From assembly GCA_963921795.1 (NCBI GenBank), contig OY997651.1, positions 40,591,356 through 40,655,355 on the forward strand: a stretch of DNA of 64,000 nucleotides. The letters run 5' to 3'. The position numbers and the translations under genes were made by a program. The notes below the pieces were generated by a model. That model saw only the letters and a program-made list of their open reading frames with translations, searched no databases and was not told the origin of the DNA. This document shows, in pieces, positions 42,504 to 48,500 of the stretch; within the stretch, counting starts at the first letter, position 1, and each line of letters opens with the position of its first letter. This DNA comes from Nannobrachium achirus (lineage: Eukaryota; Chordata; Actinopteri; Myctophiformes; Myctophidae).

Positions 42504-42515
42504 TCATTTATCTTC
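42504..42515 (-). CDS. Gene B terminal coding exon
   Basis: After acceptor TTTCAG the frame reads EDK and then TGA (42506-42504). The 3' UTR follows downstream; several AATAAA-like signals (TTTATT on the plus strand) lie around 42318-42350, but I cannot choose the cleavage site. Confidence 0.65.
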   Translation of the reverse strand, partial: EDK

Positions 42516-45500
42516 CTGAAACAGAACAACAGCGTACAATATTACGTTATATATACACTGACTGTTATTGAATAAAATATCACAGTCTGGTGGCAACTTG
42601 AACTTTTATGTGGTCAATGTCACAGCATAAAAAGGTGAAACAAGAATTAGGCAGTGTTAGCTCTGTATCTATTAAAGAAAAACAGACACTTACCATTTTT
42701 GGTTTGACTTGAGAATAAACTGCATCTGCAGTTTCCTCTGGAGCTGGTCATTCAGTGAATGGAAATGATACACAGAAAATGTTAAGAAGAAAGTATAAGA
42801 AGAGCATTAACATTTGAATCACACTGATTCTCAGCTTGATGAATATTGCGTAAAAAAACATGCAGATGCCATAACACCCCAAATCATCACTGACTGCGGA
42901 AACTTCAAAGTGGACTTCAAGCAACTCTGAATTCAGAAGGTTGACATTTCTGTATTATAAATCCTTGTTTAGAGTGGTCTTGTGTAATATTGTAATATTT
43001 TGAGATATGTATTTTTTTATATTCATGAGCTGTATGCTATAAAAAGCAAAACAAAAAACGTATCTAGAATATTATGAAAGTTTCAATTTTTTAATTATAT
43101 TACAGGAGACTGTATGTGGCTGTGTCTACACATGTCTTTTCAGGATTAGCTGTATATTATTATGTTTCAATGCAACAAATGCATGACACTGTACATTGTA
43201 GAAGAATATCCCATTTTTCACCTACCTTTCTTCTTTGACTTGTGTTTGTTTTTGCGGTTAACCTGGGCGTACGTCACATCTGGTTTATCTGCTCCTTCTA
43301 CTGTACAACACAACACAACATAGTATTGTATATTTATAATAGCCCTCCAAAAACACTGCTAACTTTGCGCAAAACCCGAAAGCTGTTATCATGCATGGTC
43401 ACATATCTAAAGTTAGGGTAATACATAAGGAAATTCGATTTTTTTCAAACTACAGAATAAACAGCTTAAGTTTAACACTGAATCGACCTGATAGATTTAA
43501 ACAATTAAGTTACAGTGCAGCTTTAACATTCAAACAGTTATGAACAGACCTGCAAAACCATTTGACCAGCAGTGACTAATGTTAATTTCCCACATAGTCA
43601 ATGGACACATAAGATACATAACACAGTGTACCTGTTGTGGCTGATCCAGTCTTCTCTTCAGAATAAAAGGGGCTCTCAAGTGGATCAGCAGGTCTCTCTG
43701 TGGAGGAAACTTGTTTAGAGTGGTCTCGTGTAATATTGTAATATTTTGAGATTTTTTCATGTTCATGAGCTGTATGCCATAAAGATTCTAAATTAAACAA
43801 AAAAGGTTTTGAATATTTCATTGCATGCCCAATGTATCTAGAATATATGAAAGTTAAAATGTTTGAATTATATTACCGTAGACTGTCAGGATTAGCTATT
43901 AAAATGTTTCAATCCAACAAATTCATGACACTGTACATTGAAGATGAATATCCCATTTTTCACCTACCTTTCTTCTTTGACTTGCGTTTGTTTTTGCGGT
44001 TAACCTGGGCGTACGTCACATCTGGTTTATCTGCTCCTTCTACTGTACAACACAACACAACACAACACAACACAACACAACACAACACAACACAGTATTG
44101 TTTAAACAGCCCTCCAAAAACACTGCTAACTTTGCACAAAACCCAAAAGCTGTTATCATAGTCACTATTAGTCAGATATCTGAAGTTATGGCAATACATA
44201 AGGGAATTAGATTTGTACAAAATACAGAATAAGCAGCAACAGCTGAAGTCAACACTGAATCAACCTGACAGATTTAAATGAAAAATCTATAAAAAAGAGG
44301 AAAGTTACATAATGCAGCTTTAACATTCGAAAAGTTCTGAACCGAATGGATCAGTTCTACCTGCAAAACCATTTGACCAGCATTGACTATTTTCCCACAT
44401 AGTCAATGGATTTAAGATTATACATAACACAGTAAAGCAGCCTGTTGCCAGCCTCTTTCACACACTTCGTTTTGGGATTACCACCTCCACCAGGGGGTGG
44501 AGTTGAGTCGGGCTGGAACCCAGGCTAAACCATGAAGTTATAAGCTAAACACAGTGTACCTGTTGTGGCTGATCCAGTCTTCTCTTCAGAATACAAAGAG
44601 CTCTCAAGTGGATCAGCAGGTCTCTCTGTGGAGAACACTTGTTTAGAGTGTTTTTTTTTTAGATATGGATTTTTGATATTCATGAGCTGTATGCCATAGA
44701 AATTCTAAATTAAAACGAAAAAGGTTTTGAATATTTCACTGCATGCGCAATGTATCTAACCCTAAGTTTCAATTTTTGAATTATATTACAGAAGACTGTA
44801 GGTGGCTGTGTCTACACATGTCTTTTCAGGATTAGCTAATAGGCATATTATTATGTTTCAATCCAACTGATGCATGACACTATACAGAATATTCCATTTT
44901 TCACCTACCTTTCTTCTTTGACTTGCGTTTGTTTTTGCGGTTAACCTGGGCGTACGTCACATCTGGTTTATCTGCTCCTTCTACTGTACAACACAACACA
45001 ACACAACACAACACAACACAACACAACACAACACAACACAACACATTATAGACCTCCAAAAACACTTACATCTGAGAGCTGTTACCATGGTCACATATCT
45101 AAAGTTAGGGCATAAGGGAATTAGATTGTTACAAACTACAGAATAAGGAGCAACAGTAAAGTGCAACATTTAACAATCCAAGATCTGTAAAAATAATAGT
45201 GCAGCTGTAACATTCGAAAAGTTCAGACCTGCAAAACCATTTGACCAGCAGTGACTAATGTGACTAATTTCCCACATATTCAATGGACTTAATAAGATTA
45301 TACATGTACACACGGTGTACCTGTGACTGCTCCAGTCTTCACTTCAGAGCTCTCAAGTGGATCAGCAGGTCTCTCTGTGGAGTTCAATTACCATTTCATA
45401 TCATCTCCACATAATACTGTAAAATCTAAAAGCTCCCTACTTTGAAAATAGGCATATGTTATTATGAAGTACAGTATACGCTACTGTTACCATTTTCAGT

Positions 45501-48500
45501 TGCTTGAGAGTCTTCGATTGTTTCATAGATGTGGTCACCACCTAAAGGTAAAGGACATTTATTTTTTTCTTGAGGCAAAAGAATGCCTGTTTTGAGGCTG
45601 TTGAATGATTGGTTGTATGGTTGGTTGAAGACCAATTCTGAAGCAGTAATGTCAATGTTAAGTTAACTGGTTGAAATGCTGACCATGCTGAAGTGTGGAG
45701 TGTCCATCATCTGCACTTCCTCTCTGGTTGGTCATCTGGTCAGAGTTCTGATTGGTTCCCTGGCACTTGACAAATCTATTTCAAGATACATATTTAAACA
45801 AGATCTACTGTGGCCATGTTATAAATAAGATTACACACACACGCACGCACGCACGCACGCACACACACTCACAGCAGTCTGTTGGGGACAGCCCTAGAGA
45901 CAGAGAGCTGTACCTACCTGTCCCAACATGGATCTGTAATAAAAAGAGCAAAATATGTTAATGCGCTTAGGCTGTTCAGTGTGTGTAGGAGGACAATTTC
46001 CCAGCATGAGTTATTTAAAAGATGCAATCTCTATTTTGAGTTGTTCTCACCATTCAAGGTTCTGTATCGATATAACAGGAGCAGAAGGATGGTCAGTAGA
46101 ATCACAGCAAGAAGTCCCGCAATCAGTTCTACTACATGTGGAGAACTCTGTTCCACAGATCCAGACCCTGAAGGTTGAGACAGTAAAACTATTTTTTTAC
46201 ATTTAAAGATTATGAATTATTATTAGATAATGAACTATTATGTCTGGCTATATAACATATACTACTGTAAGTGTAATTCTGCTGGAGTAAAACCAGATTT
46301 TTCGTCATTCTTACCCTACACACAGAAGTGTGACAAAGATTTTAAATAGATTTTTAATTAATGTATATTTAAATTTGCATATGCAAAAGAAAATGAAAAA
46401 TTGGATATTCACATCTCACTGTCATACAGCTCGGTGGTGATTCTCCTCCAGAATAGTTACACTTATAGAAGCCTACATAACATTGTGACAAAGAATGGTA
46501 CCGGTATATGTAAAAACCTGTACATTCATTTGCATATTGTTCTCGGTTTACTCACATCTCACTGTCATCCAACTCCTTGGTGATTTTTCTCCAGAATATG
46601 TACACTTGTAGAAGCCCTCATTAGACTTAGATACAGCAGGTATTACCATCTCTCCATTGGTTTTAGTTTGGACCAGTTCATCATTTCTATAAAAGTCCAC
46701 GTTGGAAAGTGACGAGTCTGTTCTGTGTTTGCATTGAAGCATTACAGAATGTCCCTCAGTCACAGGGTGGACAGGACTCACCAGGATGACAGAGCCATCT
46801 GTAAAAAAGTTGACAAGTTAAACACAGTCCACATGCTTTTAATAAGTTGATGGAATGTTGCAATATTGTTTGGTACAGTAGTGAATTAAGTAACTGGACT
46901 CACCATGTACTGTGATGTTGACAGCATTGCTGTATTCTCCCAATTCAGACTCACACCAGTACACTCCAGTGTCACCTTTGCGTAATGTTCTGATCCATGT
47001 AGATCCAGTCATTGAACCCCTGGATGAGATCATATTCCATAGATCAGTGTAACTTTTCACTTTCCATTCAGCAGAGTTTCCCTCACAGCTCAGTGAGACA
47101 GACTCAGAGGTGAAGTGCTGAGTTCTGTTAGAACTCACTGTGAGAGAAGCTGAGGAATGAAGATCTAAAACACAACACAGTAAAGGTAAAGGTCAAACGA
47201 AGAGCAGTTTTTCAATAAACTAAATCCAAGAAAAGTGTATAATTCAGAGAATGTGAAATATATAAAAATAGAGTGTCCTGTGGGTTGTTTAGAAAACAAC
47301 CTAGATGAGTCTCACTCACCACCAGACCACACAAACTGAAGAGTACTCTTCTCAGTGTAATAAACTGGGTCTCCTCTCCCAGCTTTACACACATATCCTC
47401 CTGTGCCTGTTGCACCATGAATGGTGTAGGATCCCTCTACAGTTCCATTGTGGCTACCAGATAAGAGCTCATAAGTGTAGGAGTAGTATGGTGGTTTAGG
47501 AACAGCCCTGTACCAGTAGAACATCCAGCCTGCAGATGATTCTTTAACATCACAGCTCAGAGTCACTGAGGCTCCAGGACTCAACCATGGAGGAGACACA
47601 CTCAAAACAGCCTGGGGTTTGGCTGTTGGAAAGCACATATCTCTGGATTAAGATAGTTTAATTACTGTTTGACAGGACATACTGTTGAAGACATTGATGT
47701 TTCATGCATTTTCAGGAGGCTGCACAAAAGATAATTCACAATATTTTCTATATAACAGAAATGTTCGGACTTACCTAACACAGTTAATTTAACAACATCA
47801 CTCCATGTTGTTGAAGAGTACTGGTCATCTTTGGGACGACCCTTACACCTGTAGTCTCCACTGTGATGTGTGGACACATTGTTGATCCTGAATTCAGCTT
47901 GGTTTACTGGTATGTTTAAATGTGAGCTGGTTGTTTCCCATTCATAACTCCACTCAGTGTCACCTCTCCCCTGTATCTCACACTTGAGAGTGATGGTCTC
48001 TCCACTGAATATCTGAGGCCAACTAGACTGCAGGATCAAAGCAGACCTGCTGCTCACTGTTTACATTAAGAAATAAAAATTAGAATACAAAAGTAGAACT
48101 CCCTGGCTAGAAGCTTGATTCTAAACAGAACAATAGCATGACTTTCTGACTTGAATGTGTACTGTACACAGACAGACCCTAATTCTGGATGGCTTGACCA
48201 TAAATCATGCTGTAAACATGTGCAATATGTTTTTTCTATCACAATGTGTTTTTTTAACAGCAAATTACTCACTGATTCTGGTCATGGTGACTTGATCACT
48301 GTATTGAGTGTAGTAAACTGGTTCTCCTCTCCATCCTCTGCACCAGTAGAATCCTCCTTTTGAAACACTGATTGGTCCTTGGTTGTTCAGTGACATTGTG
48401 GTACCTTGGTGCAATGATTCATACCATTCATACAGGTATGTCCATCCAGGTGAGCCCTCCACCGAGCAGCCAAGTGTAACACTGCCCCCTACTGGTACGT

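Follow-up and report, generated by a model that had tools for sequence, protein, structure and literature searches.

Predicted inhibitory motifs on tandem phase-1 mini-exons with UG-rich acceptors in a lanternfish receptor tail

A receptor gene (gene B) on the minus strand of the window, the 64,000-nt stretch of Nannobrachium achirus DNA analyzed here (G000:C14:40591356-40655355, from a genome of 1.66 Gb), encodes a tail assembled from mini-exons, three of which are near-identical and each carry a predicted ITIM. We read this as an inhibitory FCRL/LITR-like tail of phase-1 mini-exons (TM-Y5-C-A-B-Z) in which B exons would act as dose units and UG-rich tracts would tune their inclusion, and we assign this reading a probability of roughly 0.55. 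As judged from sequence, gene B is an FCRL/LITR-like receptor, a class already known. Seven Ig-like exons with open frames span 46561-50134 (minus strand, outer limits approximate), and a Pfam scan of six of them returned Ig families for all six, two exceeding the curated cut-off. Against the PDB, the exon at 47662-48060 matched FCRL5 best (E 4.6e-23), followed by PIR-B (1.5e-17) and LILRB1 (1.5e-14); the exon at 47312-47647 gave a weak match to FCRL5 among solved structures (E 4.6e-5), with antibody chains next. The Ig domains are thus related to FcR/FCRL and LILR/KIR, and the tyrosine inhibitory motifs, as defined by consensus, lie on exons other than the TM exon, both as expected of an FCRL/LITR-like receptor. 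Between gene B and a second receptor gene of the window (gene A), two further Ig-like open frames occupy 19110-20148 on the minus strand; the first shows a weak V-set match just under the curated cut-off (E 2.2e-5), and the pair may be of a SLAM/CD48-like type.

All gene B tail exons are on the minus strand. The TM exon (46051-46167, 117 nt, phase 1) is followed by Y5 (45491-45541, 51 nt), which has a tyrosine (HIYETI) but no consensus ITIM, and then by three head-to-tail pairs of A and B exons: A3 (45321-45374, 54 nt, without tyrosine) and B3 (44909-44983), A2 (44560-44625, 66 nt, SLYSEEK) and B2 (43968-44042), and A1 (43632-43697, 66 nt, PFYSEEK) and B1 (43226-43300). Each B exon is 75 nt long and encodes VTYAQV, which fits both the ITIM and the Csk consensus, while A2 and A1 have a tyrosine but no ITIM. 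Exon Z (42694-42743, 50 nt), entered in phase 1 and left in phase 0, encodes AVYSQV, a match to the Csk consensus but not a strict ITIM, and the last coding stretch (42504-42515) supplies EDK and the stop codon. Joined as TM-Y5-A3-B3-A2-B2-A1-B1-Z-EDK-stop, these exons form a single open frame, every tail exon has usable splice sites, and the resulting tail comprises 174 residues with seven tyrosines, in the contexts HIYETI, VTYAQV (three times), SLYSEEK, PFYSEEK, and AVYSQV. VTYAQV alone fits [SIVL]xYxx[IVL], giving three predicted ITIMs, all on B exons, and making the tail, judged from consensus matches only, a candidate for inhibitory function. The original prediction had described this tail as three tandem A-B pairs (A of 54-66 nt, B of 75 nt) plus two further tyrosine exons, and that architecture holds, with Y5 and Z as the additional exons and one open frame throughout. 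Its assignment of a tyrosine motif to every exon does not, and its ITIM count was too high, as the A exons of gene B contribute none.

The B exons of gene B are in phase 1 on both sides. When exons were skipped singly in silico, the seven from Y5 to B1 preserved the frame and Z broke it, so that symmetric units could be gained or skipped in frame and the tail may be viewed as a modular series of phase-1 mini-exons, interchangeable with one another, that follows the plan TM - Y5 - C - A - B - Z. Reading through the donor site of any gene B B exon (43226-44983) meets an in-frame stop within three codons; a retained intron would therefore end the tail just past the ITIM, leaving one, two, or three ITIMs according to the intron retained. 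As a guess, the motif of each B exon might also be kept at the membrane by the basic run that follows it.

To compare tails, 19 receptor regions from the same genome were used, one apparently holding two genes; regions were selected for their resemblance to exon B in DNA sequence, with motif-bearing seeds, which biases the set toward intact B exons, and near-identical genes enter the counts more than once. Each shows elements of a common plan, Y5-C-A-B-Z, in which the copy number of A, B, and C varies; a tail has one to four B exons and zero to five C exons. Exon orders, in which a missing exon is one not found by the scan, are C-A-B-Z in four C18 genes, C-B-B-Z in two C16 genes, Y5-C-C-A-B-A-B-A-A-B-A in three near-identical genes at 41.92-41.98 Mb, Y5-C-C-C-C-C-B-Z in a gene at 41.99 Mb, C-C-C-A-B-A-B-A-B-Z in a gene at 40.55 Mb, and A-B-A-A-B-A-B-A-B-Z in a gene on C5 with 5,000 N upstream. 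The tails of L015, L016, and L017 are 98.7-99.1% alike, lie ∼20-26 kb apart, and have identical exon order. The scan required lengths divisible by three, and among the lengths found, the B mode of 75 nt (21/37) alone carries information; in L019-L022 and L025, the script probably placed the acceptor of the B exons a few bases downstream of its true position. Eight scan rows without usable splice sites were excluded before counting: one A, one B (VTYAKV), and one weak Z in the 40.65-40.67 Mb region, one Z each in L019, L021, and L022, and two Z in L020. When C and A exons were compared with the whole genome, further copies came to light on C2, C3, C4, C10, C13, and C19; 40 candidates were scored per search, so that the counts are "at least" values, and these loci were read in short stretches.

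In gene A, also on the minus strand, the tail exons (939-2918) are C (2918-2850), C (2754-2680), A (2381-2319), B (2093-2019), A (1287-1225), and B (1013-939). The presence of the same A-B pairs in this gene had been foreseen, and two were found. The exon scan did not find the end of the gene A tail, nor a Y5 within 3040-3770 of the window, whereas gene B and four further regions do have a Y5. In the initial C exon (2850-2918), the motif tyrosine has been changed to Cys with splice sites and frame intact, as also in the first C exon of the gene A relatives L014 and L015-L017. The further claim that symmetric exons permit the number of motifs to change without a frameshift is supported by the range of one to four B and zero to five C exons across the 19 regions of this single assembly, and by an apparently recent extra unit on C5; its extension to splicing and to differences between alleles is a prediction.

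Retention of the motif is a property of B. Without exception, the 37 spliced B exons, from four contigs, match the ITIM consensus and that for Csk binding as well. An ITIM is present in 26/26 A exons of the other groups but in only 1/11 of the gene B group, the one group in which A exons have lost it (10/11 versus 0/26 elsewhere). Reading the A exons of gene B as ITIMs was rejected on this basis, the consensus being unmet there though met in gene A and other groups. The ratio pN/pS, from pairs that are not independent, was 0.30 and 0.21 for B exons of the gene B and gene A groups, respectively, as compared to 0.98 and 1.05 for A exons; this contrast is absent from the C18 group, in which A gives 0.38 and pairwise comparison of B finds 12 nonsynonymous differences and 0 synonymous ones, and the 54.9 Mb group is of insufficient size. 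We suggest that B is the retained signaling unit, with its VTYAQV-type motif fitting the consensus both for ITIMs (SHP-1/2 docking) and for Csk, and that the A exons of the gene B group, having lost the ITIM, have largely turned into spacers. By analogy with the catfish receptor IpLITR1.1b, each added B should bring one inhibitory docking site. Near-identity of exons could also arise from gene conversion within or between arrays rather than from selection on the motif, in which case the tail need not be functionally special. B exons of the gene B group do have lower synonymous divergence than introns (0.048 versus 0.183), A exons too diverge less than their own introns, and low divergence with pN/pS near 1 in the A exons of this group is expected of exon-centered conversion. 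However, constraint on splicing signals could also reduce synonymous change, and conversion alone leaves unexplained why B exons from four contigs have the motif in 37/37 cases when one group has lost it from its A exons; we regard this alternative as rather unlikely.

The units of the gene B array repeat with introns included. Pairwise identity of its B exons is 75/75, 74/75, and 74/75, with flanking identity of 86-88% in the downstream intron and 78-80% in the upstream intron beyond the repeat. Aligned to the 40.55 Mb array, gene B is 83-90% identical in register and 71-77% out of register, indicating that the triplication is older than the split of the two arrays and ruling out that all arrays are recent. 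On C5, in contrast, an A-B-A unit with a period of ∼2.1 kb occurs twice, the copies differing across 1,584 aligned columns by 2 mismatches and 30 gap positions, consistent with a recent gain. From sequence, this second unit could be either a polymorphism or a false assembly duplication. Extended to the family, the latter thought would make the copy-number differences partly an assembly artifact, or a product of non-functional genes; the near-identical C5 units and the 5,000-base N run, placed where the TM exon is expected, point that way, but introns have diverged between the copies within gene B, within gene A, and within the 40.55 Mb gene, so these copies are no assembly duplicates, and gene B is open throughout. 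We consider such an origin quite improbable. Comparison of the paralogs shows that duplication of C, A-B, or A-B-A units has left the genes with differing unit numbers, and unequal exchange between the repeated introns is a plausible route. Elsewhere in the window, perfect tandem duplications with periods of 367 and 392 bases (100% matches) lie at 30331-31064 and 59373-60125, either very recent or an assembly effect, and a 290-base unit forms an array of 5.7 copies at 54574-56210 (93% matches).

A feature of the B exons that was absent from the original prediction is a UG-rich tract at the acceptor. In gene B (minus strand) this is (TGTTG)11 for B3 (44989-45043), (TGTTG)9 for B2 (44048-44092), and (TGTTG)3 for B1 (43306-43320). 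Within the 80 nt upstream of the exon, the longest G/T run had a median length of 32.5 in the 36 B exons, 6 in the 37 A exons, and 5.5 in the 28 C exons, and runs of at least 12 preceded 22/36 B, 0/37 A, 0/28 C, 0/5 Y5, 0/10 Z, and 2/18 TM exons; one B exon was omitted because its upstream DNA is N, and near-identical genes make the 36 non-independent. The tract is (TGTTG)n, with n of 3-14, in three groups (19/37 B exons) and TG- or TGCG-rich in four C16 B exons, whereas the gene A group (14/37) has no long tract and a G/T run of only ∼10 nt. At held-out loci (eight for B, one without a readable exon and another with two), runs of at least 12 were found for 7/8 readable B, 0/5 A, and 2/7 C exons, the two C cases being T-rich; the exceptional B exon had a run of 6. 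Within 257 kb, 17 of 21 (TGTTG)4+ arrays adjoin a B acceptor, 17/17 in sense orientation; one of the other four lies just upstream of a B-adjoining array, and three on C5 precede non-B DNA. These three (G000:C5:52569158, 52571272, and 52573392) all stand before one shared non-B sequence, which may be a mobile element that came to lie beside a tract and was later copied with the unit. They are not marks of decayed B exons, the DNA that follows being 36-37% identical to exon B (ungapped). Each of the three gene-B-type arrays has its shortest tract at its final B exon (3 versus 9 and 11; 9 versus 13 and 14; an interrupted 3 versus 9, 10, and 12), and shared descent means that these are not three independent cases.

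Among the sequence hints of a possible regulation of B inclusion, the tract is the strongest. It is reminiscent of CFTR exon 9, where, in the accessible text, a nearby UG repeat bound by TDP-43 silences splicing (PMC3985631); a UG-rich tract next to the acceptor is found here for 22/36 B exons, outside the gene A group, although it is mostly (UGUUG)n and stands before several exons of one gene. In PECAM-1, absence of exon 14 abolishes SHP-2 binding according to the parts of the report available (PMC5664058), also a tail exon, but a single one without a repeated array. By these analogies, UG-binding splicing factors could use the B acceptor tract and so tune the number of B exons in the mRNA. 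A stronger version, that inclusion of each ITIM exon is set by a mutable UG microsatellite in front of it, the length of which varies the "brake dosage" between alleles or cells on top of unit gain and loss, seems decidedly unlikely. The tail could instead be constitutive, all mini-exons always being spliced in, with copy number reflecting birth and death in a large family and the UG tract a tolerated microsatellite in place of the pyrimidine tract. The usable splice sites of all gene B exons, the three-pair array kept in register since the split from the 40.55 Mb gene, and the abundance of G/T-rich microsatellites in the window agree with this, but long tracts occur mostly at B exons, and the held-out loci show a similar contrast; we consider a constitutive tail possible without finding it probable. 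Regulated inclusion of B dose units remains our preferred reading.

Published coverage of such receptors, here partial and with few subscription papers, does not describe tandem ITIM exons. A paper on goldfish LITRs reportedly treats alternative splicing. FcR-like Ig domains are common to gene B and to the FCRL/XFL receptors of mammals and Xenopus, but in gene B the TM exon is followed by eight tail exons, among them a repeated pair, and by a last coding stretch. In the accessible text on catfish, IpLITR1.1b has six tyrosines, its ITIMs recruit SHP-1/2, and AVYAQV, nearly the B motif, binds Csk (PMC4810170). IpLITR shares with gene B its teleost origin, its Ig domains, and a long tail with several tyrosines, but its motif order differs and that description includes no tandem exon array. 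Teleost NILTs, too, are fish receptors that occur in clusters and have four or five ITIMs, but the sections available give them phase 0 ITIM exons, several motifs per exon, and V-type Ig domains (PMC3022915), unlike the B exons with phase 1 on both sides. The kind of receptor is known, and the tandem ITIM exon arrays with UG-rich acceptors appear to be a new form of it, as judged from the literature covered. If each B adds a docking site, the family would be a natural dose series of one to four near-identical ITIM exons, and as any number stays in frame, the relation of motif number to strength of inhibition would be directly testable. The B-linked UG tract would likewise offer a simple prediction on splicing control of inhibitory signaling.
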